This document shows, in pieces, positions 35,807 through 61,850 of a stretch of 64,000 nucleotides of DNA (position 1 is its first letter; every line of letters begins with the position of its first letter). This DNA comes from Phorcus lineatus (Eukaryota; Mollusca; Gastropoda; Trochida; Trochidae). Both the position numbers and the translations under genes were made by a program. The notes under the pieces are model-generated. The model did not search any database and was not told where the DNA came from. It saw nothing but the letters and a program-made list of their open reading frames with translations. The stretch covers positions 36,739,082 through 36,803,081 of the forward strand of contig OV121090.1 of NCBI GenBank assembly GCA_921293015.1, read 5' to 3'.

Positions 35807-35926
35807 ACGGGAGTAAAAGTATCTTTACTTTGCGTTCACATGGGATTTTAACCAATGGGAGTATTTCTTAAATTTGCATATAATTCAGACACTTGATAAC
35901 TGAAAATAAAACTGATATGACCACAT

Positions 35927-37084
35927 ATGTGGACAGACATCATGAGCAAGCTACTGATAACCAAGCAAAGGAAAGATTTCCAGTATCTCCTGTGTACTGG
36001 TCTTGTCCTTGGATGTTCCAAAGAAAGGCAGGTGTGGTCAAGAAAGCGGTCACGGACATGGTGGGAGGATATAGTTGGCGGAAACTTTACAACTAAGGAG
36101 TGGATAGAAAATTTCAGGATGACAGAAGAAACCTTTAACTTTTTTTGCGAAGAGCTACATCCGTATCTGCCTAACAGTGGTGCATTTGTCAGGGAGCCAC
36201 TTGACCTCAACCACAGAGTAGCCATTACAGTTTATTGGTTGGCCAGCAATGCCGAATATCGCACTGTCGGTAATCTGTTTGGGGTAGGAAGCTCAACAGT
36301 GTGTAAATGTGTTCACACAGTCTGCACAGCTATTTCGGAATTTCTTCTCCCGAATTTTGTCACATTTCCAACAGGTGACAAACTTCATGATACCATAAGT
36401 GGCTTTGAGAAGGTTTGGGGGTTTCCGAACTGTGCGGGTGCGATTGACGGAACACATATTCCTATTATTGCACCACCTGTTGCACATGGTGATTACCTAA
36501 ATAGGAAGGGGTGGTACTCAATCATCCTTCAAGCCACCTGTGATTTCAAGTACATAATCACTGACATCAACGTTGGGTGGCCTGGCCGAGTCCATGACGC
36601 CCGGGTGTTTGGGAACTCAGAAATCTTCTACAAAGGCGAAACAAACGATCTTTTCCCAAATCTACCTAAAAAGCTTGTATGCCAGGACAAGGTTATCAAC
36701 ATGCCAATTGTGCTTCTTGCCGATGCAGCTTATCCCCTGAAGACATGGCTCTTGAAACCATTCACACATATCAACAACCTGACGGCAACACAGAGAATAT
36801 ACAATTACAAACACAGCAGAGCTCGCATGACTAACGAGAATACATTTGGGCGCCTTAAGGGAAGGTGGAGACGCATACAGAAGAGACTTGACACAGATGT
36901 AGAGTTTGCTAGTACAGTTGTCACTGCGTGTGTCGTTCTTCATAACATCTGCGAGATTAAGCATGAGCAGTATGTGGAAGCTGAAGTCGATGCATACGAG
37001 CATGATGCAGTGACTGACGATGAAGACGTCCCGTGCGCAAAAACTCTCTGTAATGATTTGGCAACATATTTCGCTAATGTCTGA
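35927..37084 (+). CDS. PIF/Harbinger DDE transposase (HARBI1-like)
   Basis: This 385-residue protein has the family layout. An N-terminal helix-turn-helix region (about 97-133, around YWLASNAEYRTVGNLFGVGS) precedes the DDE nuclease. Visible catalytic residues are D174 in GAIDGTH, D224 in GWPGRVHDARVF and E304 in ENTFGRLKGRWRR; ADAAYPL (265-271) is the family strand before the third motif. Length is close to typical (350-450). It would excise and insert the element at short TWA-type sites in the nucleus, helped by the Myb-like protein encoded convergently 460 bp away. The chosen ATG is the first in frame; an internal start (M6) is possible. AATAAA lies 34 bp after the stop. No stop or frameshift is seen and all catalytic residues are kept, so activity is plausible but unproven. 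Confidence 0.92.
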   Translation: MWTDIMSKLLITKQRKDFQYLLCTGLVLGCSKERQVWSRKRSRTWWEDIVGGNFTTKEWIENFRMTEETFNFFCEELHPYLPNSGAFVREPLDLNHRVAITVYWLASNAEYRTVGNLFGVGSSTVCKCVHTVCTAISEFLLPNFVTFPTGDKLHDTISGFEKVWGFPNCAGAIDGTHIPIIAPPVAHGDYLNRKGWYSIILQATCDFKYIITDINVGWPGRVHDARVFGNSEIFYKGETNDLFPNLPKKLVCQDKVINMPIVLLADAAYPLKTWLLKPFTHINNLTATQRIYNYKHSRARMTNENTFGRLKGRWRRIQKRLDTDVEFASTVVTACVVLHNICEIKHEQYVEAEVDAYEHDAVTDDEDVPCAKTLCNDLATYFANV

Positions 37085-37546: not shown

Positions 37547-38569
37547 TTAAAGTTCAAAAAAGGAACGTCCACCGTCATCATAGGACACATTTGGTTTGAA
37601 ACTGTTAGTAGTTGGAATGTGGTTGTCGCTGAAGCTAGTTGCAGGTGTGAACATGTTGCCAGTGGGTACGGCATTAACACGGCCCAGAATCATGTTCATC
37701 ATCTGGAACTGATGTCTCCGCTCTTCCTGTCTCTCTTCTCTCTTCATTGCACGCTCGTCGCGTCTCTGGCGTTCTTCAGATTCTAGTTTCTGTTTCTCCA
37801 ACTCGATCCTCTTCAGTTCAATATCTGTTTTTTTCGTTTCCAAGTCAACGAGGGTGCCCTCGAGCTTGCTGTTGCTGTCATTGAAATTGGTCATTAGTGA
37901 TCCAATTACAGTTTCTAGTTTAGTTTTACGTTTCTTCTTTTCAGACGTCTTCACAACACAACTTTCTTTCTTTTCATTTGTCATTTTATCAGCATTCTGT
38001 GTTACTGCCGGTTCTGCCACAGCAATGTCATCCTCGCTGTCATTTAGAGGTTTGTAAGTGTCGTCAGCGTCAGCGTCAGCAGCATCAGGATCTTGAATCG
38101 CATCACTGTCACGGTCAGCAGCATCACCATCACCATCAACGCGCCTTGGATCCTCTTGAATGGCATCGCTCTCGGAAGCATCATCAGACACATCTTCTTT
38201 ATACAGCCTCTTTCTCGTCAAACTCTCGACAACTTTCAGCGGCGAAGAGGCTGGACGATCACCGAGAAGTTCTGCAAGTTTCGGGTAAAATTTGCACACC
38301 TTTCTTGCGTTACCACTTGTTTTCAGTTTCTTATTACAATCTCTGTAGTTCTTTCGGAGAGTGTGCATTCTTATTTTGCACTGTTGACCACTTTTTTCAT
38401 GACTGTTTTTGGCCATCTCGTTTTCAATCATGGAATAAATAGATCCCTTGTGTTTCTTTGGATCCTCAAGAAGCATCTCTATTTTCTTTTCACCCCAGAT
38501 AGCAAGAAGACATTCTGTTTCCTCATCTGTCCACGATGCGCCACGCCTCGACCTTCTTTTCGCAGCCAT
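37547..38569 (-). CDS. Myb/SANT-like DNA-binding partner of Harbinger transposase
   Basis: The 340-residue product begins with a basic stretch (KRRSRRG), then a trihelix/MADF-type Myb-SANT domain (about 12-105: WTDEETECLLAIW, then CKIRMHTLRKNYRD and CKFYPKLAELLG). An acidic Asp-rich linker (about 125-195) and a basic KKKRKTK (about 211) lie in the middle. A long charged coiled coil (about 235-295, Glu/Lys/Arg-rich) and a low-complexity tail complete it. In known Harbinger systems this second protein binds the transposon ends and brings the transposase into the nucleus. It is convergent to the transposase and uninterrupted. TTTATT at 37144-37150 could be its polyadenylation signal (minus strand), overlapping the transposase 3' end. 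Confidence 0.9.
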   Translation of the reverse strand: MAAKRRSRRGASWTDEETECLLAIWGEKKIEMLLEDPKKHKGSIYSMIENEMAKNSHEKSGQQCKIRMHTLRKNYRDCNKKLKTSGNARKVCKFYPKLAELLGDRPASSPLKVVESLTRKRLYKEDVSDDASESDAIQEDPRRVDGDGDAADRDSDAIQDPDAADADADDTYKPLNDSEDDIAVAEPAVTQNADKMTNEKKESCVVKTSEKKKRKTKLETVIGSLMTNFNDSNSKLEGTLVDLETKKTDIELKRIELEKQKLESEERQRRDERAMKREERQEERRHQFQMMNMILGRVNAVPTGNMFTPATSFSDNHIPTTNSFKPNVSYDDGGRSFFEL

Positions 38570-38754
38570 ACTCTACTGTTTTGAAGACAAATCTCAAATG
38601 ATCCCAAAGGAACTCAAAGAGCCAGACAGGTCACGTGACCGTCTGGTCTAATTCAGTGATGATGCAAGGACTAGGTGAAAAAAAACCAGACAGGTCATGT
38701 GACTGGTCTAATTTTGTGACGATGCAAGAATTTGTTATTTTTAGACTTGTATCC

Positions 38755-43381: not shown

Positions 43382-44082
43382 CCTGTCTAAGGGTAAGACC
43401 TATAGCTGACGCTCCGCTTCTCTTACCCTGGGTGAAAACCCCAGCACAAACTTCGCGCCATGATCAATGATTCAGCCAATCAAATAATTTTTTCGCGATG
43501 GTGTGCGATAAATTTCAGGCAACCAAAGAGAGCCTCTCAAACTGCAGTTGGCTTCGCTCTTCCGCTAAATGGCGATTCCATGGATAAAAAAAAACTGGAA
43601 TCGAAAGATTTTTAACCGATCAATGAAAGATGAAAGTCAGAGACAAATTTTGCGATTTTGTTAAGTCTATTACAACAAATACACCCAGTATTTACGGATC
43701 GGTTTAATTTTCCACCACGCGTAAGAGTGCTTCAGAGACCCCTAGAGCTATACCAGCAGGGGCAACCAAGCTGGAAAGGTCGTCGGGTAGAAGCCAGACC
43801 AAATTTGAGTCGTTCTAAAACCTGTTATCTATCTTTCACTATGCCTTTAATTCCGTTTTTTCCCTCATCCTTTCGATCCCTCTCTCCCTGCTGTGTCCAC
43901 TCTCTTTTGAATGCGTGTCATCCACGTGTTTAATAACTGAAATATTGTTCAAAACACGTACCCAACTCACTCACTCGGTTTGATTTTCGAAGGGATGTTC
44001 ACGGCGCGAAGTTTACGATGAGGTTTTCACCCAGGGTAAGAAGAGTGGAGCGTCAGCTATACGTCTTACCCTGAGACAGGAT
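43382..44082. mobile_element. MITE-like element with about 78-bp TIRs
   Basis: 43382-43459 and the complement of 44005-44082 share CCTGTCT, AGGGTAAGAC, TATAGCTGACGCTCC, CTTACCCTGGGTGAAAACC and AACTTCGCGCC, about 85% identity. No transposase is inside; the middle holds a copy of repeat Rg. A target duplication could not be fixed, so the superfamily is unknown. Confidence 0.75.
43700..43975 (+). repeat. Dispersed repeat Rg, copy inside the MITE
   Basis: Starts near TGCTTCAGAGACCCC and runs through GGGTAGAAGCCAGACC, CTGTCCACTCTCTTTT-like sequence, CATCCACGTGTTTAATAACT and GAAATATTGTTCAAARCACG to CACTCACTC. It matches 45985-46067 plus 61624-61850, and inverted 63625-63765. The complement ends in GTGAGTGAGT, a motif I associate with widespread mollusc repeats. 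Confidence 0.75.
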
Positions 44083-45984: not shown

Positions 45985-46067
45985 TACCTTATCGTGGTGT
46001 GGTGGTTTGCGTGCTTCAGAGACCCCGAGAGCTATGCCAGCCGGAGCGTACTTGCTCCTGGTAGAGA
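45985..46067 (+). repeat. Repeat Rg, 5' half interrupted by the foldback element
   Basis: Reads TGCTTCAGAGACCCCGAGAG through GCTCCTGGTAGAGA and stops. The same repeat resumes at 61624 with GAGACACCCAAGCTGG. Removing 46068-61623 and one GAGA gives a continuous Rg, which defines the insertion. Confidence 0.8.
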
Positions 46068-46228
46068 TGTTCCGTGCAATCTGGGAATGATCACAATCTG
46101 CAGATTGTTCGCTAACAATCTGCAGATTGTTCGAACAATCTAGGAATTATTTTCATTCCTAGATTGTTTAAACAATCTGCAGATTGTGAGACCTGAACAA
46201 TCTGGGAATGATCACAATCTGGGAATTT
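46068..46228 (+). repeat. Left TIR of the foldback element
   Basis: Contains three CAATCTGCAGATTG palindromes, AACAATCTAGGAATT and its inverse, then CCTGAACAATCTGGGAATG and ATCACAATCTGGGAATTT. The same series is found inverted at the right end, with one module fewer. Confidence 0.85.
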
Positions 46229-46320
46229 GATTGGTTATAGTATGCATTATAACATGAGAATTGTCTAGTTTATTTAGTTTTTTCTTTGTGTATGCATCCA
46301 AATGATGGAGAATAGTTGTC

Positions 46321-48282
46321 AAGTCATAGATTGTGACAGGTTCATAGCTCGCCTATATATATAAAATGACGGAGTATTGGGTTCGATTCCTGGATTGTGA
46401 AGGGCTTACAGATGGACATTATATCAAACTGAGAGGGAATATGGGTCAATTCTCAGATTGTGTAGGGCTCATATCTCGCCTATCTATATGTCAAACTGAG
46501 GGAGTATATGGTTCGATTCCTAGATTGTGAAGGGCTCACAGCGCGTCTATATGTCAAACTGAGGGAGTATAGGGATCTATTCTCAGATTATCAAGGGTTC
46601 ACGGCTCGCTTTTATGTCAAACTGAGGGAATATAATGGCCGATTCCTAGATTGTGAAGGGCTCACATCGCGTTTACATGTCAAACTGAGAGATTATATGT
46701 ATCTATTCTCAGATTGTGAAGGGTTCACAGCTCGACAATTTGTCTAACTGAGGTGGTATAAGGATCTACTCTCAGATTGTGAAGGGCTAACAGATCACCT
46801 TTATTTAAACTGAGAGGGTATAGCAGTCGATTCTCAGATTGTGATGGGCTCATAGCTCGCCTATAAATCAAACTGAGGGAGTATATGGGTCGATTCCTAG
46901 ATTGTGAAGGCCTCTACGCATGCCTTAAACTCAAACTGACGGAGTATAAGGGTCGATTCTCAGATTGTGAAGGGCTTACAGCTCACCTTTATTTAAACTG
47001 AGAGGAAACAGAAGTCGATTCCCAGATTGTGAAGGGCTAAGATATCGCCATTATGTGAAACTGATGGAGTATAGAGGCCGATTCCTAGATTGTGAATGGC
47101 TCATAGCGCGCCTATATGTCAAACTGAGGGAGTATGGGGATCTATTCTCAGATTGTGAAGGGCTCACAGCTCGCTTTTATGTCAAACAGAGGGACTTTAG
47201 GGGACGATTCCTAGATTGTGAAGGGTTCACAGATCGCCATTATCGCTAACTGAGGGAGTATAGGGATCTACTCTCTAAGATTGTGAAGGGCTCACAGATC
47301 ACCTTTATTCAAACTGAGAGGGAATAGCAGTCGATTCTCAGATTTTGATGGGCTCATAGCTCGCCTATAAATCAAACTGAGGGAGTTTATGGGTCGATTC
47401 CTAGATTGTGAAGGGCTCACCGCATGCCTTAAACTCAAAATGACCGAGTATAAGGGTCGATTCTCAGATTGTGAAGGGCTTACAGCTCACCTTTATTTAA
47501 ACTGAGAGGAAATAGAAGTCGATTCCCAGATTGTGAAGGGCTAAGATATCGCCATTATGTCAAACTGAGGGAGTATATGGTTCGATTCCTAGATTGTGAA
47601 TGGCTCACAGCGCGTCTATATGTCAAACTGAGGGAGTATAGGGATCTATTCTCAGATTATTAAGGGTTCACGGCTCGCTTTAATGTCAAACTGAGGGAAT
47701 ATAATGGCCGATTCCTAGATTGTGAATGGCTCATAGCGCGCCTATATGTCAAACTGAGGGAGTATAGGGATCTATTCTCAGATTGTGAAGGCTCATAGCT
47801 CACCTTTATTTAAACTGAGAGGGTATAGCAGTTGATTCTCAGATTGTGATTGGCTCATAGCTCGCCTATATGTCAAACTGAGGGAGTATATGGGTCGATT
47901 CCTAGATTGTGAAGGGCTCACCGCATGCCTTTAACTCATAGGAGGGAGTATAAGGGTCGATTCTCAGATTGTGAAGGGCTTACAGCTCACCTTTTTTTCT
48001 AAACTGAGAGGAAATAGAAGTCGATTCCCAGATTGTGAAGGGCTCAAATATCGTCATTATGTGAATTTGAGGAAGTAGGGGCCGATTCCAAGATTGTGAA
48101 GGTGTCACAGCGCGTCTATATGTCAAACTGAGGGAGTATAGAGATCTGTTCATAGCTCACCTTGATGTCAAACTGACGGAGTATAATGGCCGATTCCTAG
48201 AATGTGAAGGGGTCACAGCGCGTCTATATGTCAAACTGAGGGAGTATAGAGATCTGTTCTCAGATTGTGAAGGCTCGTAGCT
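46321..48282 (+). repeat. Left minisatellite arm, about 31 units of 63 bp
   Basis: Units have a core YCTAGATTGTGAAGGGCTCA or TCTCAGATTGTGAAGGGCT, then a variable middle, GTCAAACTGAGGGAGTATA and a short spacer. Several unit subtypes alternate in fixed order. The marker TTATTTAAACTGAGAGGGTA recurs at 46801, 47305 and 47806, giving a higher-order period of 504 and 501 bp (8 units). The array continues at 56807 after the LINE insertions. Confidence 0.9.
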
Positions 48283-48562
48283 GGTTTAAACAATATTTAT
48301 TTCAGAAAAGAGAAAGGGATTAATAAACAGGCTAGCAGCCTATCTGATTTAAACATATTTATTCATGTTTTTGTATAGTACATGAATGGATTGGCCAACA
48401 AGCTCCGAAGAGCTTATATCAAGGCCGCTCCGATACAGTTACATATAAATAGATACAAACTCATATTCGTGACACATGTCCGATTCACAACTTAGCTTCA
48501 AAGATAGTGGTTTTACATTAATATCATGTTGTTTGCGTGGCAGTCATTACATATTCAAGTGC

Positions 48563-51500
48563 TTAAAAGGAGTCAAATCGATCAGATTTTATGATATATT
48601 GATGAATAGACTTCAACAATTTGTTAAGATCGTCGTTTGAGAGCAATGTACATCCCCTAAGTACTGTATTAATACTAAATCCTTTCAAATAGAAGAATGA
48701 ATTCTGTCTTAATTCTGTGTAATTGTGGCATGTGAAAAAATAGTGTACGGCGTTTTCAATTGGGTGACCGCATGAGCACTCTGGGCTGTCCGCGATATGT
48801 CTATCAAACTTGTCGGCATTCAAATCACTACAACGGAGCCTGAGGCGGGAATGGATAATTTGACAAATTCTTGAACCATAATTAAGATCGAAGTTAACAT
48901 TTGTATTTCTAGATCCACAAAGCTTATTTTTGAAGCCGGATAATGTATCGATATTTTGGATGTGAGGATTTAATGAGTTCCATAGTTGTATTGTGTCAGG
49001 TAAGAAAGACCTGGCATAAGTCACCGTTCTACACTTCATTGTTCGTACGGATGAATTTTCTCTGAGATTGTAGTCATTCGTACTGGGTGTTTTTGGTAGG
49101 AGGTCATTAAGATATTGAGGTGCTAGATTATTTTTCATTTTATAAAAAGTAGTCAATTTAGATATATATCTACGTTCTGCTAGTGGTTTCTTATTCGTTT
49201 CGTCATAAATTTCCTTATGGCTTGTTCCGCGAACTGCTCCACATATTGATCTTAACGCATCCAAGTTCAGCTTTTCTAGCAAGTTACATTGCTCTTGAGT
49301 ACAATTATCCCAAATATGCCCACAATAATCAAATATTGGTATTATGAAGGATTTATAAATAATTTCTAGACTTTTTCGCGATAGCCGATATTTCAGACTT
49401 CTTAAACAGTTAATCAGGGGACTAACTTTCTTGATCACTGAGTTTATATGGACATCCCAGTAACAGTTACTTTGAAGGGTCAAACCTAGATGCTTATGAC
49501 TTTCTACTTCTTCAATCGTTTCACCGTTCATTATCAAATTAGGTTTAGTGCTCCTATTTATTTTTCTGCTAAACTGTATTGACTTAGTTTTTTTTGGATT
49601 AAAAGAAACCTTCCACTTTTTGGCCCAGTTTGCAATCAATGACAGATCATTATTTAAACAGTTTGCAGCTACATTAGGGTCATCAATTATGACATACAGA
49701 GAAGTGTCATCTGCGAAAAGTCGGATTTTACTGTCAATGTCATCTACAATATCATTAATGTAAATAATGAATAATAGGGGTCCCAAAACAGAACCTTGAG
49801 GGACGCCTGCTAATACATGTTTGGGATTTGATGCGTGTCCATTAATGACAACTCGCTGGGTTCTATTATTCAGGTAACTTTCAAACCAATTCAATAAATT
49901 GCCTTCAATTCCATATGATCTTAATTTCTGCAGTATACCCTTGTGCCAAACTTTATCAAATGCTTTGCTAACATCGCAAAATACCGCTCTCACTTCTTTT
50001 CCGTCGTCCAGCGCTTTTGCTATGAAATCATATAGATAGGTCAATTGATTAGTTGTTGAGTCGCCAGAGGTAAATCCTGATTGAAGATTTGAAAGGAGGT
50101 TATTATCTCTTAGAAAATTATTTACATGTTTAAAGATACATTTTTCGAATACTTTAGCCAGACAGCTCGTTAATGCTACTGGTCTATAGTTTGAAGGGTC
50201 GTATATGTCGCCGGTTTTGTGGATAGGGATGACATTCGCTTCTTTCCAAGAAGTAGGAAATTTAGCCGTATTTAAAGACAGATTAAATAGTTTGGTTAAA
50301 ATGGGAGCTAGAGAGTTAGCACAACTTTTTAGTACTTTGTTTCCGATTTTATCAGGGCCGATCGCTTTAGTTGTATCTACAGAGAGTAATATATCCTTAA
50401 CTTCCCCCATCTCTAATACTAAATCGGTCAGAGTACTATCGCAACGTTTATCAACAAGAGGGGGGTCGTCGTCAGGATCTATAACTTTGGATTGACTAGT
50501 GAAGTAGTTGTTCATTATTTCTGTTACATCGTTGAACTCATCGTAGAGTACATCATCCTGGATAACTGACTTACAAGTGATTTTTGCCGATTTATTTAGT
50601 AAATAGTTCTTAACTAGTCTCCACCATGTTTTTGTACAGGTTGATTCACTTATTGCATTATCAATTTTAATTGTATGTTGTTTTTTAGCTTTACGTACAG
50701 AGGATATTACTTTATTTCTCAGTGATTTGAAATTTTGCCAGTCTAGGGGACGGTTAGTTCTTTTAGCGATTTTATGTTGCCTATTTCGTCTCCTCATAAG
50801 AGATCGTATTTCATTATTCATCCAAAGGGTGTCTCTAGGTCTAATAAGTACGGTTTTATTTGGTATACTCGCATCGCAAATTTGGATAAGGTCGTCGGTT
50901 AATTTGGTTGTTATAGGATCTATATCCTGGGTTTGAGTTACATCAATGTCAATATTATTTATAAATTGGTTTAAACAGTCTGTATTCGCTCGAGAATAAT
51001 CATAAACCTTCCGCTCAAAGCAAGTTTCTTTCTGTTTATCTGAATCAATGTTAATATACACCGGGCAGTGGTCACTGCATATAGGATCCAGCACTCCCGA
51101 TTTCCGTACTTTGTTAAAACATGTTACAAATATCAAATCAATCAATGTACGAGAACGAGAGGTGATTCGTGTAGGTTCAGATATAAGTTGCTTGAGTCCG
51201 TACGCGGCTTCTAAATAGTTCAGTTTAGTGTGATGTTCGTTTAGGATATTTAGATTAAAATCCCCTAAAATGATAGTTTTCATATTTAAATCCACGGCAT
51301 TTGAAATACTATTGTCGATGAGGTCCCAATACAGTTCACTTTTATCTGCTCTATAGTAGGTACCAATAAGAAATGTCTGTTTTTTACTTTTAACTTTTAT
51401 CCATAATGCCTCAAGCCCAGCTGTATCCAAAGTATCCATGTGCTTAGCACATAAATTATCTTTTACATACACTGCAACCCCACCGCCACGGCTTTCTCTA

Positions 51501-51874
51501 TCCTTTCGAAATGGCGCCTGAAAACCCGGAATAGCGATTTCTTTATTATTTATTGTTGAGTGTAACCATGTTTCGGTTAAACAGATCACATCGTAGGAAC
51601 TAAACTCAGCTTCTAATATATCTATTTTATCTTTTAGGCTTCTAACGTTAAGGTGAATGATCTTAAGATCAGTATGAACACAAGGACCTGGGTGAGGATG
51701 TACATCGCCACAGCAAAGGAGGAAGAGTGTAATAAGGATACTTACTTTAGGATTGTATAAACAAAGAAATCTAAGATTGTGAATGAAAACTGCGAATTTC
51801 ATCAACGATTTTACGTGCACCTTGACTGCAAACTGCCCCACTGCCTGTCTATACTGCACTATATCAACCGGCAT
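48563..51874 (-). CDS. LINE polyprotein: endonuclease and reverse transcriptase
   Basis: An uninterrupted 1103-residue ORF. A hydrophobic N-terminal segment ends in GDVHPHPGP (56-64), a 2A-like motif. An exonuclease-endonuclease-phosphatase domain (about 70-285) follows, with LNVRSL (N76), TETW (E101), GDFN (204-207) and SDHCP (H269), which nicks target DNA. The reverse transcriptase (about 490-800) shows NYRPVALTS, FDKVWH, AGVPQGSVLGPLLF and the catalytic FADD (about 716-719). The C-terminus has CSCGHPIENAVHYFFTC, the CCHC-type knuckle of many LINEs. Length is normal for a fused single-ORF element. Intact frame, all catalytic motifs and a perfect 17-bp duplication suggest recent insertion and possible activity. 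An upstream ORF1 was not recognised. Confidence 0.95.
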   Translation of the reverse strand: MPVDIVQYRQAVGQFAVKVHVKSLMKFAVFIHNLRFLCLYNPKVSILITLFLLCCGDVHPHPGPCVHTDLKIIHLNVRSLKDKIDILEAEFSSYDVICLTETWLHSTINNKEIAIPGFQAPFRKDRESRGGGVAVYVKDNLCAKHMDTLDTAGLEALWIKVKSKKQTFLIGTYYRADKSELYWDLIDNSISNAVDLNMKTIILGDFNLNILNEHHTKLNYLEAAYGLKQLISEPTRITSRSRTLIDLIFVTCFNKVRKSGVLDPICSDHCPVYINIDSDKQKETCFERKVYDYSRANTDCLNQFINNIDIDVTQTQDIDPITTKLTDDLIQICDASIPNKTVLIRPRDTLWMNNEIRSLMRRRNRQHKIAKRTNRPLDWQNFKSLRNKVISSVRKAKKQHTIKIDNAISESTCTKTWWRLVKNYLLNKSAKITCKSVIQDDVLYDEFNDVTEIMNNYFTSQSKVIDPDDDPPLVDKRCDSTLTDLVLEMGEVKDILLSVDTTKAIGPDKIGNKVLKSCANSLAPILTKLFNLSLNTAKFPTSWKEANVIPIHKTGDIYDPSNYRPVALTSCLAKVFEKCIFKHVNNFLRDNNLLSNLQSGFTSGDSTTNQLTYLYDFIAKALDDGKEVRAVFCDVSKAFDKVWHKGILQKLRSYGIEGNLLNWFESYLNNRTQRVVINGHASNPKHVLAGVPQGSVLGPLLFIIYINDIVDDIDSKIRLFADDTSLYVIIDDPNVAANCLNNDLSLIANWAKKWKVSFNPKKTKSIQFSRKINRSTKPNLIMNGETIEEVESHKHLGLTLQSNCYWDVHINSVIKKVSPLINCLRSLKYRLSRKSLEIIYKSFIIPIFDYCGHIWDNCTQEQCNLLEKLNLDALRSICGAVRGTSHKEIYDETNKKPLAERRYISKLTTFYKMKNNLAPQYLNDLLPKTPSTNDYNLRENSSVRTMKCRTVTYARSFLPDTIQLWNSLNPHIQNIDTLSGFKNKLCGSRNTNVNFDLNYGSRICQIIHSRLRLRCSDLNADKFDRHIADSPECSCGHPIENAVHYFFTCHNYTELRQNSFFYLKGFSINTVLRGCTLLSNDDLNKLLKSIHQYIIKSDRFDSF

Positions 51875-52142
51875 CTATATGCATTCTACAATCAAATAAG
51901 GCAGTGGGGATCAATTTGAATATACATGTATAACAAAAATGGCAAACAAAGAAAAGCGCAAAATACTTGAGATCTTGAAGCACATTAATACAATATGGAC
52001 GCAGATCAGTTGTGGTGAAAGTCACAAACATACTTATGTTTAAAGAACAAATAAGGTAAAAAGTAACAATGCAGATGGTATACATAATCTGCATATATGA
52101 CAACAAGACATTCATGGAAAAAGCAAAACATTGTGAAAGAAA

Positions 52143-52435
52143 GAACACCATTGGTGAAATCATTACCAACATATATGCAAGATGTAAATGGTTAACTCCC
52201 AAAATTGCAAATTCATGAACTCTACGAAAAAAAAAAAAAAAAAGACCCGAGAAAAAGAAAAACTTAACACAAAAAGAAAAAAAAAACTTTAGAAAGAAAA
52301 AGCACCATTGGTGAAATCATTACCAACATATGTGCAAGTAGTAAATGGTTAACTCTGCAAAATTGCAAACTCATGAACCCTACGAAAAATACCCGAGAAA
52401 AAGAATAAATAAAAACAAAAGGAAAGACAAAAAAG
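52143..52435 (-). repeat. Two-unit 157-bp tandem repeat in the LINE 5' region
   Basis: CACCATTGGTGAAATCATTA at 52146 recurs at 52303, followed in both by CCAACATATRTGCAAG and AAATGGTTAACTC. The position upstream of the ORF suggests promoter monomers, as in other LINEs (inference). Confidence 0.7.
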
Positions 52436-53448
52436 AGGTTAAGAGATTTCATTCAAGTCTAATTTCGGTGATCTGCAGGAGAACGTTTTTCTCATGAGTA
52501 GAATTGAAATAACGTAATTAGGTCAACCCGGGGAAGAACAAAGACAACAACAGAAATGATCAATTTAGAGCATACAGAACTCCACATTTACAAGCGTACA
52601 GAGTAATAGAATAAGATCGGGGCAAAAGGGCTTCAAGTGAAAGCACGAGCAAATTTTACTTTATAGAGAAAAATGAGAAAAGAAACAAAAACTTAAAAAA
52701 ATATCGACAGGGCAAAGCAGTTACGTTAACCACATATTAACCCCCCTAAAAACCAACAACCTTTGAAGAGTCGAATAGTACAAACGTGTACAATTATGGT
52801 AGATAATACATGTTTGTCTAGAAAACAACCTTAGCAACTTTAACTGTACTGTGTCAATATCTCATGTTTTACTAGCGTTTGTTGCTTTCCTATCACGACA
52901 CAGCATGACATGCACGCATGTTTTGATCATACGTTCTTGTAGAAATGAATGATTCTTCGCGTTAGATTATGCATAGGTGTCATTTTCAATTATTGGCAAT
53001 GATAATCATTATAACACTTTGTGCAGCTATTTTTATGTTTTGAAAACACAAGAATACGTATCTCAAAAGTGAAAAACAATTTCACAACATTGAATGTTAC
53101 AAACCTCACAACGTTAAGAAAGCATGCTTCTCACGTGCGATATGCTTCTCAAGGTTCAACGCTAGTTCATACACGCTCGTACACGATTAATTAGTCATGC
53201 AAGAAATTGCAACTAGCAAACATCACAATTTCAATTTAATCAATTCAAACTCAAATAATGTAACAAATTCATATTTGGGGTGACCGATATGTCAAAGTAT
53301 TTAACCAAGTTAATGTATTTGAGGTTTCTAAGGCCAACAAACACGTACCTTGGTGTTAATTACAACACACGGACACATGTTTTTCTCGAGTGTCGTCATG
53401 TTAGCATGCTATAACACAGTACAAACGTGTTGCTAGCAGCCTATCTGA

Positions 53449-54702
53449 ATACCTCTCCCATACATACATATATACATTTATACACCATATCTTAATTCAT
53501 CATCATTGAAGTTAGCAGACTTAAATAATTATGGATTAAACAGAAAAACGTTTAGTAAGGGTAAAATATAAAAGAACAGATTTAACAATCTTTTCATTGA
53601 TTTCGTCTGAGTAGGAATCATTACCAAATAAAACAGTTTGAATATCGTAACCATTAACGTAAGAGAAACACTCTGATCGAAAACGAGAAAAATTTGGACA
53701 AATAAAGAGAAAGTGAATGGCATCTTCATAATGGTAAAAATATATCAAATTTATCTCCGTTTAGATCGCTACAGCCAAGTCTTAGTTTACAGTGAATAAT
53801 TTGGTTGTATCTCCTTCCAAAGTTTCTTATAATATGATGTACATTACATGCTACATTTCGATCAAGGTTTTTTTTAAATAACGCTACTGAGTCTATGTTT
53901 CTTAGTTTATCATCAAGCATATTCCACTCCAACACAGATGGTAAAAATGATTTTTTATATGATTCAGTGCGACAAAGAGGTACTTGAAGTATGTTTGATG
54001 ATCTTGATTCATACGTGGAAACAGAGGATATGTTTAATGGTATCAAATCTGATAGATATTTTAGAGTTGTATCATTGAACATTTTATGGAATACACACAT
54101 TTGATGATTTTTGCGACGTTCGCTTAGAGATGTAAAACCGGTTTCAAAATAAATTTTCAAATGACTTACTCCTCTAACGGATCCACATATGGTTCTGAGG
54201 GCATCTAAATGAAGTTTTTCTAGTAGTAACTCTTGAGTTTGCATACAATTGTTCCAGATATAATCACAATAATCAAATATCGGTAAAATGAATGAACCAT
54301 ATAGAGTATGAAGTGTTTTTCTTTGAAGGCGATATTTAAGACTTCTCAAGCAGTTGATCATAGGACTAACCTTAGAAATAATGTCATCTATATGCATTTT
54401 CCAGTTACCATCGCTTTGCAAAGTAAGTCCCAGATGTTTATGTGATTCAACTGATTCAATTGGTACCCCATTCATTAAAAGGTTGGGCATTACTGTAACT
54501 AGTTTCTTTCTTGTAACAATTATAGATTCTGTTTTTTGAGGATTAAAATCTACCTTCCATTTGTTGGCCCATTTACTAATTAATTCTAAATCATCATTTA
54601 TTATATTTGAGGATAAAACAGGATCATCTATTATCACATATAAGGATGTATCATCAGCAAATAGTTTGATATTACACTGAATATCTTTAACGATGTCGTT
54701 AA
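53449..54702 (-). pseudogene. LINE copy 2: 3' part of reverse transcriptase and C-terminus
   Basis: From the TTAA insertion leftwards the frame reads NDIVKDIQCNIKLFADDTSL (catalytic FADD present), then the thumb and C-terminal region homologous to copy 1 (PIFDYCDYIWNNC, LRTICGSVRG, IIHCKLRLGCSDLNGDKFD). A frameshift near 53740 moves the last part (HYEDAIHFLFICPNF, the His/Cys knuckle) to another frame ending near 53536. Identity to copy 1 is clear but partial, so copy 2 is an older or different subfamily member. Confidence 0.88.
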
Positions 54703-54924
54703 ACGGCCAGTTCGACCGGGTATTTTCTGTTCCACAAATATTCGGGAGGGAATTCCCTTTTGCACGCGACACGTAACTTTTTTATATATTCGATTTGTTT
54801 TCTATTTTCTGTGTTTACAACTTTTTCATGTTTGGTAATTAGTTGTAATCCGTCCTTCAAACTGAAAAAAATAGCGAAAACAATCGAAGCCACTGACCAG
54901 CACTACCAAGGGGCTTAACTCTAT

Positions 54925-54950
54925 TGCGATCATGGCGGCCATTAGATTGT
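54925..54950 (+). promoter_or_regulatory. YY1-like motif upstream of the plus-strand exon
   Basis: CATGGCGGCCAT (54931-54942) matches the core of the animal YY1 site often found near transcription starts. It lies 300 bp before the AT-hook exon. Motif resemblance only. Confidence 0.4.
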
Positions 54951-55063
54951 TGTCCGCTGCATGATTGATCTGCGTTGTAGTAACCTTGTAGTTACTTGGA
55001 TGTTTTGATTGTTGGGGATTAATAATGTAAATAATGTTTGCATAACTAATTATGACATCTCAA

Positions 55064-55216
55064 ATGGCTAAGCTCAATCAATATGACACTGAGGAGAAAA
55101 GTGGCTTCGCTCCGGCTTCCCAATATAAACAAAGATTCGTCCAGACTATCGCACTCCAAATTACTCACAGTGCTGCAGTTTTCCGTACATTAAAAACTTT
55201 ATGTGAAGTAACTTAG
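55064..55216 (+). other. 50-codon upstream ORF
   Basis: An ATG-to-TAG frame starting MAKLNQYDTEEKSGF lies 30 bp before the AT-hook exon start. If the region is transcribed, it would be an upstream ORF or a separate small peptide. No family recognised. Confidence 0.3.
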
Positions 55217-55246
55217 ATATCTTTCTTAAAAAAGAAGAGTTTTACT

Positions 55247-55452
55247 ATGAGTGAAGTTGTGCGAAGTCGAGGGCGACCGCGAAAGTACGATGGAAATTCG
55301 CCTGCGAGACGACAACAAGAGAGAAATGCCAAGCGGATTTATTTGGGAGACCTTGCTCAAAAATGGAAAGACCTGAAATCGGCACTGAAATTTACGGACT
55401 TTGAACTGGCAAAGCATTTGCTTGACAACCATGAGTTGACATGTGACTGCAA
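55247..55452 (+). CDS. First exon encoding an AT-hook (RGRPRK) protein piece
   Basis: Begins MSEVVRSRGRPRKYDGN: RGRPRK at residues 8-13 is an AT-hook for the DNA minor groove. A basic stretch and WKDLKSALKFTDFELAKHLL follow; this W-LK-F-FA-LL spacing recalls a family of uncharacterised animal proteins with Cys-rich or zinc-finger C-termini (recognition from memory, weak). The exon ends in CAA|GTAAGT (donor 55453-55458, phase 2). An acceptor TTTGCAG ending at 55926 would add about 12 codons and a stop (55927-55962), giving a mini-gene, but this is unproven. It is probably a captured host first exon or a relic of the parent transposon's own gene. Confidence 0.5.
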
Positions 55453-56061
55453 GTAAGTACAACTGTTTTTACTGTTGTTCACATGATAGGCTAATATAAA
55501 CATGGTTATTTCTCTGGATGAAATTGCTTTTATCAACATGTCAATTCCATGATTTCATAAAGGAGTGACTGTTTTTGAAAAAAATGAAGGGAACTGTACT
55601 GTACAGTAGTTGTCAAAATTTGATGGGCATTGAAAAGATAGGTTCAACCAAAATTATTACTGCATAGTAAGGAAATACACATTTGAAGTTCATATATATC
55701 ATAATTTTATTTCAGCCATAAGTAATACTAATTGAAACGAATAAATAAATATAATTCAAGTATTATTGTAAGAATTCAATTTTAATGCTGGCATATATTG
55801 TTTAGCATTTTAGAGCTTATCATCTCCAACTTTGATAATATTGATGAAACTGAATGTCTTTCATGTCCTTTTCCTTATAGTCCATATATGTATACTAACT
55901 GATTCAATTATTGTTGTAATTTGCAGTTCCAAAACAGAGAGAAATATACATGTGACGCAATAAGACCCACGATAATAGGGACCACCTTCATAGTAGATAA
56001 TTATATTATGATTCTTGTGAACAAGGTAATGTTTTCTGGAAGAAAGACTCGCCGCACTTAC

Positions 56062-56229
56062 CTCCGCAAAGGACAGGTCGCCGTCAATCGGTTGATCTTC
56101 GCGGTTTGTACACGGAAGTAAATGACCACACTGACATAGATCGCTGCAATATCTCTTCATCTGCTTACAAGGACATGATCCACGTTTTCCTGACCGAGAA
56201 CAAGTGTTGTTGCACTGACAGCTCGCCAT
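56062..56229 (-). CDS. First exon encoding a Cys-rich (CXC-like) peptide
   Basis: Reads MASCQCNNTCSRSGKRG, then SCPCKQMKRYCSDLCQCG, then LPCTNRE, with ten Cys within 43 residues in CxC and CxxxC spacing. This resembles CXC/tesmin-like zinc-binding repeats that also occur at the C-terminus of several transposon and host proteins. It ends at codon 56 with GAG|GTAAGT (donor complement of 56056-56061), phase 0. The frame continues openly beyond the donor but loses Cys density, supporting the exon end. Orientation is opposite to the AT-hook exon; the two point at each other. Confidence 0.5.
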
Positions 56230-56393
56230 GATCGAAATTGAGGAAAAAACGCATGGTCATCTGTATTTATATGTTCATTTTGATTGATTCGTGGACATGT
56301 CACAATGTCCCTTCTCTTTTGACACTGGCACATGACCAAGTACCCCGCATCACCCCTCAGACCCATTCGACACGCTGACACAAACGTGATTGT

Positions 56394-56431
56394 CGCCATG
56401 TTGTGAAAACATGCAGCGTTGCATTATGGGA
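56394..56431 (-). promoter_or_regulatory. YY1- and ZNF143-like promoter motifs
   Basis: CGCCATGTTG (56394-56403) fits the YY1 consensus, and GTTGCATTATGGGA (56418-56431) resembles the GCATTRTGGGA element of animal housekeeping promoters. Both lie 165-200 bp upstream of the Cys-rich exon. Resemblance only. Confidence 0.45.
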
Positions 56432-56548
56432 AGGGACTTTTCTCATTCTATTTATAGATCTACTTAACTGCTGACGCACTGTATCTAAAAATAGCTTCGT
56501 TAGCAGCATAAGCTTATCGCTGAAAACGTAATCGAACTGGCCGTTTAA

Positions 56549-56806
56549 TATATACAAGAAAAAGTAAAGGTCCTAAAACTGATCCTTGAGGAACCCCCGC
56601 TTCAATTGACTTAATATTTGATTTGTACCCATTAATTACTGTGAATTGTGTTCTATTAAGTAGATAACTTTCAAACCATGACAACAGAGAACCACGTATT
56701 CCATTTGCCCATAACTTGTTCAAGAGTCCCTTATGCCAAACCCTGTCAAATGCTTTACTAATATCACAAAATACAGCGCGTACCTCCTTGCCACTATCTA
56801 TCGCCA
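56549..56806 (-). pseudogene. LINE copy 2: 5' remaining part of reverse transcriptase
   Basis: Begins AIDSGKEVRAVFCDISKAFD and includes DRVWHKGLLNKL and EAGVPQGSVLGPLLFLVYI, ending at the TTAA site. It is the segment directly upstream of the piece at 53449-54702. Everything N-terminal, including the endonuclease, is missing because of 5' truncation at 56806. Confidence 0.9.
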
Positions 56807-56880
56807 CTCGTAGCTCACCTTTATGTCAAACTGTGGGAGTATAGGAGTCGATTCCTAGATTGTGAAGGGCATTGCGCTTG
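56807..56880 (+). repeat. Residual minisatellite unit right of the LINE insertion
   Basis: CTCGTAGCTCACCTTTATG, then TCCTAGATTGTGAAGGGC: one more unit of the left arm, separated from it by the LINE cluster. Confidence 0.85.
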
Positions 56881-58143
56881 TCTTTGTGATTTATTTAGCT
56901 AGTAGAGGATTCAATTCACATATTGTGAATATGTGGAGGTAGAAAACTAAATTTGTATATTGATTCTGCAATCAAGATTTTCATTAATCATAGTTTGCGG
57001 TAACCCGTATAACACTGTTTGGAGGGTGTTACTATTTATGTTCAAATTTCAAATTTTCAATTTTGGAATTTGAAAATTTTTAAATTTGAAAATACTATTT
57101 ATGTAGAAGTAAGAATTATTTCTTATATGTGTAAAATATTTGCATACGGAAATCAATAGATAACACTTCACTATTAAAAGTAAACTTGATATCTGAAAAG
57201 TTTATTACACTGAAATTTAATTCTTCATTCTCGCTTATTTGACTTAAGTTAGGTTAATTGAGCATAATAACTATCACTATCAACACAAAACACCACATAC
57301 CTTTGGTATGAATTACTTGCATAGACACTTACACTTACAAGGTACAATGAAGGAAATAGTCTCGTGATGCTAAAAAAAAGTTTTAAAAATCAAAGATAAC
57401 AAACTCTGATCCTTATATTCAAATAAGCTATTTTAGCTTCTCGCCAATCTTTGTTTCATTTTTGGAAATAAAAATATGTTTAAACCATATTTATTGTTCA
57501 TTATGGACACTTGATAACTGTTACCCTTTTCTCTCATTTTCTTCCTGGACCGTGACATTGAAAGTTTTTATTCGAACGACGCATAAATCGGAAAGGTTCT
57601 CAATCTTTTGAGTTTGTATATGAACAGTTTTTAAATATATGAATATAATACTCGAACAGTTAACATTTTGTGTTGTTGTGAATAATTAGACCAGATGTCT
57701 AGCTGGGTCTGCTTATCAAAGCAACGTGTCACTGTGTCGCGTCTCCACTCAGCCTTGCGCGTAAATTCGCGTACAATCACATTAACTTCCTCTCTGTAAT
57801 TTGATGTTTATCTATCGCACGATATCATGGGGCAAATACTTATGCAATAATGAATTGACTGGATTAAAATGTTTAATTGCTCTTCGGTCACACTATGGTC
57901 AACATTTTGACACATGTTATTTCTTTAACGTTTTTAATAGTTTCCGTTATATCGGTTTGTGAAATTAACAAAGAAATGTTTTATTTGATTTATTTATCAT
58001 GTGTTCATGATTCAATATTTTAAGAATATTTTGATATGGAGTGGATCATTTACTACGCTGCAAGAAGAGTCATATAATGGCATCGTCTCTACTCCGTGCT
58101 GCCACCACAGTGACGGGAGTGGCAAACAACTAATTTCATCTGT
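56881..58143. other. Core of the foldback element, no gene recognised
   Basis: 57045-57100 is an A/T-rich imperfect palindrome built of TTCAAATTT/AAATTTGAA words. No frame with a recognisable transposase or integrase domain occurs here. Confidence 0.5.
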
Positions 58144-58890
58144 GTGATTTAAACAGTATTTAATTTCCATGAAACATGTAATACACAACATTCAGAATAT
58201 ATATATTCAAAAAGGAAACTGAAGGATTAGCAAACAGGCAGCAAATGCTTATATAAATGTTTCTTATGAAACAAACAAGAAACGATTAAGATATCAGGTA
58301 CATTGGTGAAAATATATATTTGCAATTATTCTTACTAAAATCAAATTCATATAAAGCATTCTCTACCTTTGCATTTGGTACAGATTTAATTAAATCATTA
58401 TTTTATTTGAAAGGATTTTGTACCCATACAATATTGCGGGGATGTCCATCTCTCACAAAAAATGACCTAGAAAATTTACTGAACTCGATTCACAACTATA
58501 TCATGAAGTCTGATCGATTTGAAATTTCATAAGCACATTCATTTTATAACGACTGCCAAATAAACAAATGGTATACATGCAATATCAATATCAGTGTATA
58601 TTTCTTTGAAATTGAAAAACGATTTGTCATACGTCACTCACTTTAATTTGTTTGTATATATTTACATATGTGATTATATTGGAGCGGCCTTAAAATAAGC
58701 TCTTTTGAGCTTGTTGGCCAATCCCTTCATGTAATTTATCATGAATAAATATGTTTAAAGCAATTAAAGAGATATAAAAACCGGATGGTATCATTTATGA
58801 AATGTTACACAGATATTATTAGGGATTCGTTAGCACTCTGTGACAAGAATTTGTCGCCGCTCAAGGTAGATTTTAATGTTCTATCGTTTT
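58144..58890 (+). repeat. Dispersed repeat X, copy 2, with LINE insertion
   Basis: Colinear with 34490-34880 on both sides of a LINE fragment at 58395-58761, so repeat X predates that insertion. Confidence 0.75.
58395..58761 (+). pseudogene. 5'-truncated LINE fragment: last 45 codons and 3' UTR
   Basis: Encodes LFYLKGFCTHTILRGCPSL, then LLNSIHNYIMKSDRFEIS, the C-terminal end of the LINE family at 48563-51874. The 3' UTR has GGAGCGGCCTT, AGCTTGTTGGCCAATCC and AATAAATATGTTTAAA. Duplication AATTAAA flanks it (58388-58394, 58762-58768). Orientation is opposite to LINE copies 1 and 2. Confidence 0.85.
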
Positions 58891-59040
58891 TTAAAAAGAA
58901 TTGATTTGATCGGAATCAATCATATAGTGGGCATTTAAAAAAGTAATGAAAAGGATTCTCCCGAATGTTTCCACAAGAGCAGGCGGGATGTACTAACAAA
59001 AATAAGTGGACTTGCTTTGCGTAGTATATTTTCGGTGAAC

Positions 59041-59797
59041 GGACAAAATCCCCAAGGACAAAAACTCCAAGGACAAAATCCCCAGTGGACATAATCCCGA
59101 GCCCTATAACAACAAAATGGACATGATGGACAAAAGGTGATTAAAAATGCTTTGTTTTCTTTACTAATCAACTTTGTCTTTAATCAAAGGTATTAGTTAC
59201 TGAAACAATGAGGAAGTTCCAACCATGAGATTTCGACGTACACCAGCCCTGTTCGCTGTCAATATATGGAATGTCAATGAAGTTACATTGAACAGTGAAC
59301 ATCGCACAAATAATATTTGTGAATCTTGGAACAGTGCTTTCAAAACCCTTGTTGGACAAAATCACCCCTCTGTCTGGACGGCCATTGAGGCTTTTCAGAG
59401 AAAACATGCTATGGTCAAAACACAGCTGCTGCAATATTCAAGAGGCATCCGACAAGCAAAACGTCGGAATCGTCGCCGTGACAACAACCAGGATAAACTC
59501 AGAAACCTCTGCCTTGCATATCGCGATGGAAGAATGACATTGCCAGACTTTTTGAAAGGCATAGGTCACTCTATAAGGTTTCACTGAAACTATACTGTTT
59601 AAAAGTGCTATGTAAAATGCGAGACCGGGATTGTTACTGCTTGCTCGTATGACTAAAATTACATGTTATTACTTCCTTGCTCTGTTGTATTTTTCATCTT
59701 GGGGATTTTGTCCTACCCTTTGGGGGATTATGTTCACTGGGGATTTTGTCCTTGGGGATTATGTCCTTGGGGATTTTGTCCATTGGGGATTTTGTCC
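59041..59797 (+). mobile_element. Small MULE remnant with 15-bp repeat termini
   Basis: Both ends consist of tandem GGACAAAATCCCCAA units (15 bp; variant GGACATAATCCCC), three to four at the left (59041-59100) and six at the right (59700-59797), inverted. The inside encodes only the C-terminal part of a MULE transposase. I could not find an 8-10-bp target duplication. It lies inside the foldback element core. Confidence 0.75.
59225..59587 (+). pseudogene. MULE (Mutator-like) transposase, C-terminal fragment
   Basis: The 120-codon frame has PALFAVNIWNV, then HRTNNICESWNSAFKTLVG, HPSVWTAIEAF and finally LPDFLKGIGHSIRF. This matches the conserved tail of animal MULE-type transposases (RTNNxxExWHxxF, then HPxxWxFIxxL, then YLxGIxHN). 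The catalytic DDE core and zinc-finger or FLYWCH N-terminus are absent, so no activity is expected. The frame is intact from end to end, suggesting either a recent deletion derivative or a terminal exon of an autonomous parent. Confidence 0.8.
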
Positions 59798-59887
59798 TAC
59801 GTGATGCTGCCATTTTCCATCTTCATTTTCCATTTTCATCTGTGTAAACATGCTTCTATACCCCCGTATATATGACGTTAAGACGAC

Positions 59888-61430
59888 CTAAGAGCCCTTC
59901 ACAATCTGAGAATAGTCTCTTATACCATATCAGTTTAACAAATAACAAGCTATGAGCCATTCACAATCTCAGGATTCACTCCTATACCCTCTCAGTTTAA
60001 ATATAGATTAACTGTGAGCCCTTCATAATCTGGGAATCAACCCCTATACCCCTTAAGTTTGACAGATAGGCGAGTTGTGAGCCCTTCACAATCTGAGAAT
60101 TGACCTCTATACTCCGTCAGTTTGATTTATAGGCGAGCTATGAGCCCTTCACAATCTGAAAATCGATCCCTATACTCCCTCAGATTGACATATAGGCGAG
60201 TTGTGGGCCCTTCACAATCTAGGAAGCGGCCCCTATACTCCCTCAGTTTGACATAAAGACGAGCTATGAGCCCTTCACAATCTGAGAATCGATCTCTATA
60301 ATCCGTCAGTTTGACATATAGGCGAGTTGTGAGCCCTTCACAATCTGGGAATCGACCCCTATACCCCCTCAGTTAGACTTTAAGGCGAGCGGTGAGCCCT
60401 TCACAATCTAGGAATCGGCCCCTATACTCCGTCAGTTTGACATATAGGCGAAAGGTGAGCCCTTCACAATCTGAGAATCGACTCCTATATACCCTCTCAG
60501 TTTAGATAAAGGTGAGCTATGAGCCCTTCACAATCTAGGAGTCAACCCTTACATCCCCTTAGTTTGACATAAAGACGAGCTGAATGTCCTTCACAATCTG
60601 GGAATCGGCCCCTATACTGCGTCAGCTTGATTTATAGGCGAGTTGTGAGACCTTTACAATCTAAGACTCGACTGCTATACCCTCTCAGTTTGACACATAG
60701 GCGAGTAATGAGCTCTTCACAATCTGAGAATCGACCTCTATACTCCCTCAGTTTCATTTATAGGCGAGCTATGAGCCCTTCACAATCTAGGAATCGGCCC
60801 CTATGCTCCCTCAGTTTGACATAAAGCCGATCTGTGAGCCCTTCAAAATCTGAGAATCTACTGCTATACCCTCTCAGTTTAAATAAAGGTGAGCTGAGAG
60901 CCCTTCACAATCTGGGAATCGACCCCTATACCCCCTCAGTTTGATATAAAAACGAGCTATGAGCCCTTCACAATCTGAGAATCGATCTCTATACTCCGCG
61001 GCCGTCCGTTTGACATATAGGCGAAATGTGAGCCCTTCACAATCTGAGAATCGATTGCTATACACTCTCAGTTTAAATAAAGGTGAGCTTTGAGCCCTTC
61101 ACAATCTGGGAATCGACCCCTAAAGTCGCTCAGTTTGACATAAAGACGAGCTATGAGCCCTTCACAATCTGAGAATCGATCCCGATACTACGTCAGATTG
61201 ACATATAGGCGAACTGTGAGCCCTTCACAATCTGAGAATCGACTCCTATATACCCTCTCAGTTTAAATAAAGGTGAGCTATGAGCCCTTTTCAATCTAGG
61301 AGTCAACCCTTACACCCTCAAATTTGACATAAAGACGAGCAGAGAGTCCTTCACAATCTGGGAATCGGCCCCCATAACCACTCATTTTGAGAAAGAGACA
61401 CGCTGATTGCTCATCACAATGTAGGAATTG
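59888..61430 (-). repeat. Right minisatellite arm, about 24 units of 63 bp, inverted
   Basis: Units read GAGCCCTTCACAATCTGAGA, then TATACTCCCTCAGTTTGACA, then ATAGGCGAG, the complement of the left arm. A pair of adjacent unit variants (CTCCTATATACCCTCTCAG, then CTAGGAGTCAACCCTTACA) recurs at 60482 and 61243, about 12 units apart, so higher-order structure exists here too but with a different period from the left arm. Confidence 0.9.
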
Positions 61431-61491
61431 CTAAATAGAAAGACCTTAATAAGCTAGATAATTCCCTTTTTATAATAATGAAAATACTATT

Positions 61492-61623
61492 AAATTCCCA
61501 GATTGTGATCATTCCCAGATTGTTCAGGCCGCACAATCTGCAGATTGTTTAAACAATCTAGGAATTCCTAGATTGTGAGCAAACAATCTGCAGATTGTGA
61601 TATACCCCAGATTGTTCGTAACA
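61492..61623 (-). repeat. Right TIR of the foldback element
   Basis: The inverted counterpart of 46068-46228, with CAATCTGCAGATTG palindromes and CCTAGATTGTG modules, ending in TAACA before the GAGA duplication. Confidence 0.85.
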
Positions 61624-61850
61624 GAGACACCCAAGCTGGACAGGTCGATGGGTAGAAACCAGACCAAATTTGAGTCCTTCTAAAACCTGTTTTCTATCTC
61701 TCACTATGCCTTTCTTTCCCTCTTCCTGTCGATCCCTATCTCCCTGATCTGTCCACTCTCTTTTGGATGCTTGTCATCCACGTGTTTAATAACTGAAATA
61801 TTGTTCAAAGCACGTAAAACTCCATCTCACTCACTCACTTTTGACTAGTT
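61624..61850 (+). repeat. Repeat Rg, 3' half interrupted by the foldback element
   Basis: Continues Rg from GAGACACCCAAGCTGGACAG to GTTCAAAGCACG and CACTCACTCAC, closely matching 43757-43975. Confidence 0.8.

Follow-up and report, generated by a model that had tools for sequence, protein, structure and literature searches.

Foldback transposons whose enzymes have been traced have Mutator-type or P-type transposases, according to the available parts of two reports (PMC4079207, PMC3169594). Ginger2 transposons, in the accessible sections of their description, have TGTNR ends, terminal inverted repeats (TIRs) of about 50-180 bp (about 45-297 bp in its Table 2), an RTATAY target and duplications of 4 bp (5 bp in TDD-4/5), while Ginger1 targets CCGG/CCGT (PMC2836005). 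Here, we describe a foldback family of the gastropod Phorcus lineatus with fixed end blocks, 63-bp units in inward arrays and precise, 4-bp-duplicating insertion into T-R-TATA-Y-A-like sites. It resembles Ginger2/TDD in its TGTN ends, 4-bp duplication, RTATAY-like target and TIR of about 150 bp (available parts of PMC2836005), and integrase-bearing relatives with the same target reside in the same genome. Unlike Ginger2/TDD, the foldback copies read have no integrase match, their left end opens with TGTTC, and their TIRs adjoin arms of 63-bp repeats that reach kilobase length, a feature not mentioned for Ginger2/TDD in the same parts of that paper (PMC2836005).

Three described foldbacks are comparable, each as far as the accessible parts of its paper go. 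Tetris of Drosophila virilis likewise has long inverted arms, internal tandem repeats and a noncoding variable middle; its arm repeats also share a stretch with the terminal domain and its trans helper was not found, but it makes 8-10-bp duplications, is placed in Mutator and has an arm unit of about 220 bp (PMC4079207). Galileo shares the long TIRs with internal tandem repeats, which there hold extra transposase binding sites and provide a model for the heptamers discussed below; it differs as a P superfamily member with a THAP domain, and its sites were measured whereas those of our foldback are predicted (PMC3688188). Tm1 has composite foldback TIRs of variable length and MITE-like forms, and its rare enzyme-coding copy counts as a further likeness, but its transposase is of the Phantom/Mutator type, its duplications are mostly 9 bp and it has no target preference (PMC3169594). 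Literature searches in open PMC texts (including available parts of PMC8268682) returned no combination of foldback and Ginger2. As both the architecture and Ginger2 are known, their combination is, judging from sequence, what appears to be new within these texts.

The copy under study occupies positions 46068-61623 of the window, i.e., the whole 64,000-nucleotide stretch analyzed, which belongs to an assembly of 957.8 Mb in 74 contigs. It opens with TGTTCCGTGCAATCTGGG and closes with CCCAGATTGTTCGTAACA, exact boundaries that were read from the window letters. The TGTT/AACA termini, the GAGA duplication and the inward, oppositely oriented 63-bp arrays named in the original prediction are all visible in the letters or the TRF output (period 63, higher order 188/189, at 46328-48273 and 59892-61390; Table 1). 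The terminal blocks are inverted repeats that align with indels, and the right block of the window lacks 20 bp (one palindrome) relative to the other copies in a 19-copy alignment. It had also been claimed that an interrupted flank repeat becomes continuous once the element is removed. The flanks do match a paralogous repeat, on the left at 46011-46047 (with 43727-43763, 37 bp, 89%) and on the right from 61622 (with 43757-43976, 224 columns, 85%), but continuity is only nearly restored, as the joined flanks carry 21 bases beside the insertion point that the paralogue does not have. Since the related repeat at 43727-43976 matches both flanks, they were formerly adjacent apart from these 21 bases.

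Table 1. Features of the window copy and its target site (window positions)
Feature	Positions	Strand	Basis
Target duplication GAGA, left copy	46064..46067		Window letters and duplication count of 34 elements
Left end block (LE), 162 bp: TGTTCCGTGCAATCTGGG, then ladder of mostly alternating ACAATCT/AGATTGT heptamers	46068..46229	+	19-copy alignment, genome 18-mers
Left arm, inward 63-bp-unit array up to the LINE insertion	46328..48282	+	TRF, monomer consensus
Nested LINE-bearing insertion, 8.5 kb, inside the left array	48283..56806	-	9-bp flanking repeat, Pfam
Left arm remainder past the LINE insertion	56807..56929	+	63-bp unit matches
Element core, L009-type, with extra segment at ~58395-58761	56930..59033		Comparison with copy L009
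Nested fragment, ORF 59204-59587 between inverted GGGGATTTTGTCC arrays; MULE-like by eye	59034..59801		Absent at the same place in copies L012 and L026
Right arm, inward 63-bp-unit array, opposite orientation	59856..61430	-	TRF and copy comparison
Right end block (RE); reverse complement opens with TGTTACGAACAATCTGGGG	61494..61623	-	19-copy alignment, genome 18-mers
Target duplication GAGA, right copy	61624..61627		Window letters and duplication count of 34 elements

While the boundaries of the proposed 15.5-kb element are exact, the unit itself was inflated by nested insertions: the element proper measures about 5.9 kb, which is within the range of its relatives, and insertions make up the remainder. 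The LINE-bearing insertion is bracketed by the 9-bp repeat CTCGTAGCT (48274-48282 and 56807-56815) and carries an ORF (48563-51874) for an endonuclease and a reverse transcriptase (Pfam Exo_endo_phos 4.7e-14, RVT_1 1.1e-34). A second LINE fragment within 53726-56825 is in turn interrupted by a TTAA-flanked element at 54703-56544, whose ends read ACGGCCAGTTCGA. Comparison with other copies revealed further inserts at ~58395-58761 and 59034-59801, and the window core is 95-98% identical to that of L009 over the shared parts. The ORF at 59204-59587 had no significant Pfam match.

Exact 18-mers of the two ends occur 290 (LE) and 341 times (RE, with W at one base) in the genome, and the reversed controls not at all. 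A 163-bp LE query gave 1159 candidates at first look, and the best 40 of these, which were scored, match at 99-100%. Both ends lie within 10 kb of each other in 18 of 20 fetched loci, 2636-8475 bp apart. When 100 listed right ends were compared with 78 of 100 listed left ends, 54 were paired convergently with a left end at most 14.2 kb away; the partner of a 55th was 29.2 kb off, and that left end was shared. Other neighbours within 30 kb were rare (three same-strand, one divergent), and 45 of the 100 listed right ends had no exact left end within this distance. Long inverted tandem-repeat arms around a variable middle, i.e., foldback architecture, were present in 19 of 19 analyzed copies with both ends, and five short forms of 0.7-1.2 kb consist of arms with little or no core. 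The fetched copies have two main core types. Full-length cores of the first type (L011, L013, L021, L023, L025, L028) are 97.9-100% identical, those of L021 and L023, on different contigs, being identical over 2024 bp, and L018, L020, L024 and L027 match this type in part. Among the matches listed, the second type is more diverse (about 84-98% where aligned), and only segments align between the two types (mostly 70-87%). Near-identical copies sit on different chromosomes, and the family, with at least 290 left and at least 341 right ends, is best read as recently active.

The insertion footprint was read at both ends of 34 elements (the window copy, 18 long copies, five short copies and ten from the C1 pattern list). 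The 4-bp duplication, which the original prediction proposed to check at several insertions, is perfect in 27 of them, matches at three of four positions in six and at two in one. A T-R-[4 bp]-Y-A site surrounds 30 of the 34 insertions (2.6% of positions taken at random elsewhere in the window), with T at -2 in 34/34, R at -1 in 32/34, Y at +4 in 33/34 and A at +5 in 33/34 elements. Each of the four TATA bases is found in 21-23 of the 34, and exact RTATAY in six (0.4% background). Genome-wide, T-R plus four bases (TR+4) precedes 312 of the 341 right ends. The seven imperfect duplications and the 29 right ends that do not conform to TR+4 speak against a Ginger2-type enzyme. Neither a CCGG or CCGT duplication, as in Ginger1, nor an 8-10-bp duplication, as in Mutator/Phantom foldbacks, was seen among the 34 elements.

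In the 19 aligned copies, LE is nearly invariant over 162 bp, which is partly circular because the best LE matches had served to select L009-L028; the unselected RE is nearly invariant over about 150 bp, except for deletions in L014, L022, L026 and the window copy. Inward of both blocks the sequence diverges. RE starts with TGTTA (TGTTG in L012) and LE with TGTTC, its fifth base being C. The blocks are ladders of the heptamer ACAATCT, with ten occurrences in LE and 11 in RE (nine in the window RE) in mostly alternating orientation in the three copies counted. One heptamer is also contained in the 63-bp consensus, and the arms, in three copies followed along their length, carry it in a single direction per arm. 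Whole elements contain 33-90 heptamers versus 0.4-1.9 in shuffles (18 genomic copies), and the window copy 71 versus 3.5. Exact palindromes with 8-bp arms cover 82 of 165 bases in LE and 81 of 165 in RE. From the arms, 843 monomers were extracted, four to 55 per arm. Mean best-match identity between left and right arms is 0.881 both within and between elements, so that homogenisation of the arms within an element was rejected. The two arms of an element resemble each other no more than arms taken from different elements, which argues against mutual arm rebuilding at every move.

A candidate source of the enzyme was sought with a Ginger2/KRBA2-like integrase bait of approximate sequence, for which 150 of 1118 candidates were scored. 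Among these, 83 places, of which many are fragments, have 50-68% identity and are ranked higher than the first 34% match; the frame around that match has 1674 aa, the size of Gypsy. Downstream of one integrase ORF lie repeats of 29-bp period with inverted near-repeats, and then an end at which TAACA is followed by TATATACA. A 156-bp query of this Ginger2-like end matched the best 40 of 309 candidates at 98-100%. The exact 16-bp end preceded by TR+4 forms 19 convergent pairs within 8 kb, ten of which enclose an integrase match, and lies within 4 kb of 18 of 65 integrase places; three integrase-enclosing pairs have a full length of 2808-2921 bp. These counts are based on 82 of 83 ends, two of which were entered with their low coordinate, and on 65 of 83 integrase places, leaving out nine of ten tandem C9 copies and the last nine entries. 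The ends open with TGTTAC and are preceded by TR+4 in 83 of 103 cases (reversed control 0 and 1), the 20 that do not conform being a further point against a Ginger2-type enzyme, and TATA is present on both flanks of the two pairs whose letters were shown. The Ginger2-like TIR has TGTTAC and a repeat-built plan in common with the foldback RE. The ACAATCT heptamer is absent from it, and only 18 of its 166 bases fall into exact palindromes with 8-bp arms, a number not above that of the best shuffle. Because TGTTAC and the target are shared with the foldback RE and the heptamer is not, we regard this family as a relative and not as a proven helper.

That the window element shows no transposase of its own, as originally noted, agrees with the bait search, which matched neither the window nor the fetched foldback copies L009-L055; the ORFs of the 20 fetched copies were searched as a whole with this bait and in part against Pfam. 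Based on 34 integrase places (C1, C2, C5, C7, C9), no integrase is enclosed by any of the 55 listed LE-RE pairs, and none lies on the inward side of the 45 unpaired listed right ends up to a distance of 15 kb. A genome search with Pfam rve, with 150 of 1313 candidates scored, gave no Ginger2 candidate, and by eye the ORFs inspected (three, plus one per locus at 20 loci) resemble Gypsy or Copia. A locus with two right ends (C5:63353714-63366676) was rejected as an autonomous copy, since its ORFs are LINE-like and it lacks a duplication. Two observations count against a Ginger2-type enzyme: these searches yielded no autonomous copy bounded by the foldback's ends, and the fifth base of LE is C and not the R of TGTNR.

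We consider it likely that the family is a recently active, non-autonomous foldback that is moved in trans by a Ginger2-type integrase. The footprint is Ginger2-like because it matches Ginger2 in TGTN ends, duplication, TIR and target, whereas Mutator-type foldbacks duplicate 8-10 bp, and Ginger2 is preferred over Ginger1 because the target is RTATAY-like and not CCGG/CCGT. The original prediction of a foldback-like mobile element with integrase-type ends and trans mobilisation is thereby supported by ends, pairing and footprint, the enzyme still being presumptive, and its comparison with Ginger elements was apt and can be narrowed to the Ginger2 group by the target.

The alternative that survives best, although we judge it unlikely, is that another 4-bp-duplicating superfamily moves these elements and that their RTATAY-like preference arose by chance. 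Such groups are known, for example IS481EU in part (available parts of PMC10045372), neither the copies read nor the 55 listed pairs yielded a cognate enzyme, and LE begins with TGTTC instead of TGTNR. However, the combination of TGTN ends, duplication length, TIR length and target is that of Ginger2, and the genome also harbours a Ginger2-like family that shares the target. A Mutator/Phantom-type foldback of the FB, Tetris or Tm1 kind, moved by a MULE transposase and with the ORF at 59204-59587 as the remnant of its own enzyme, is very improbable. It would be in accordance with the assignment of most foldbacks to Mutator (available parts of PMC4079207 and PMC3169594), with the fragment inside the window copy that appears MULE-like by eye, and with a FLYWCH finger in L012 (PF04500, 1.3e-13) that has a 98% identical insert in L026. 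Yet the duplications are of 4 bp, not the 8-10 bp of Mutator, and each MULE-like fragment is a nested insert in its own right, bounded by its own short repeats, the window insert missing from the L012/L026 site and the L012 and L026 inserts being oppositely oriented; moreover, this family has a target preference and Tm1, as far as its description is available, has none (PMC3169594). Inversion of a satellite array by chance or rearrangement, without any mobile element, could draw on the satellite-like arms, the 45 of 100 listed right ends without an exact left end within 30 kb and one 13-kb locus with two right ends and no duplication, but its probability is negligible because there are hundreds of dispersed copies whose ends are fixed and pair convergently and whose insertions show duplications and a target consensus; the refutation test attached to the original prediction found ends paired at element scale and 4-bp duplications at other loci.

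Under the preferred reading of Ginger2-type mobilisation, an integrase-type transposase of this group, provided in trans by an autonomous element, would pair the foldback ends and join them, by strand transfer with a 4-bp stagger, to RTATAY-like target DNA. ACAATCT, with about ten occurrences per end block and about one per 63-bp unit, may be a repeated recognition site, as its repetition and the analogy with Galileo suggest, and the arms may have arisen as docking sites were multiplied through unequal exchange or replication slippage. It is tempting, if somewhat doubtful, to propose a further independent origin of foldbacks, here on a Ginger2 transposon, in which the 33-90 heptamers make up a long array of integrase docking sites, with which the non-autonomous element would compete better for a shared enzyme. 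For this docking array, the heptamers mostly alternate in the ends and are 63 bp apart in the arms, and 63 bp correspond to six helical turns at 10.5 bp per turn.

If an enzyme of the retroviral-integrase-like kind is what moves this family, unrelated transposition chemistries give rise to the same arm structure, which, if true, would fit the idea that repeated binding sites, and not a particular enzyme, drive the formation of foldback arms. A dispersed 63-bp satellite-like repeat is linked to a transposon, and the function of foldback arms can be tested in the Phorcus lineatus genome, where young copies number in the hundreds, short derivatives consist of arms alone and a sister family carries an integrase.

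At G000:C5:63353714-63366676 (L034, L035), on a contig of the window's own assembly, two foldback right ends lie face to face with 13 kb between them, and the interior holds both arms as well as LINE-like ORFs. No duplication was found at this locus, which is either a chimaera formed from two copies or a rearrangement.

Nested fragments were observed in three foldback copies, i.e., in the window copy (59034-59801) and in the cores, between the arms, of the genomic copies L012 and L026. The fragments end in short tandem repeats (GGGGATTTTGTCC; GGAAAAAAAGTCACA) and are MULE-like as judged by eye; that of L012 contains a FLYWCH finger.

Transposon features in the window
Feature	Position	Strand	Evidence
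1.8-kb element	54703-56544		TTAA at either side; inverted ends ACGGCCAGTTCGA
DDE_Tnp_4 transposase ORF	35921-37084	+	Pfam 5.1e-34
Myb/SANT-like ORF	37547-38572	-	Pfam 1.3e-18

The TTAA-flanked element sits within a LINE fragment. Its plus strand carries a short exon-like ORF, with a weak AT-hook match below the cut-off, and a Pfam search with the cysteine-rich ORF on its minus strand gave no match. The transposase and Myb/SANT-like ORFs together represent a putative Harbinger-like pair.

Searching the genome with the integrase bait revealed ten places of equal score at an exact spacing of 2393 bp (G000:C9:13846872-13868870), where a Ginger2-like gene or element is apparently repeated in tandem. 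Three equal-score rve hits spaced by exactly 8953 bp (G000:C37:5820959, 5829912, and 5838865) point to a Gypsy-like element in tandem array.
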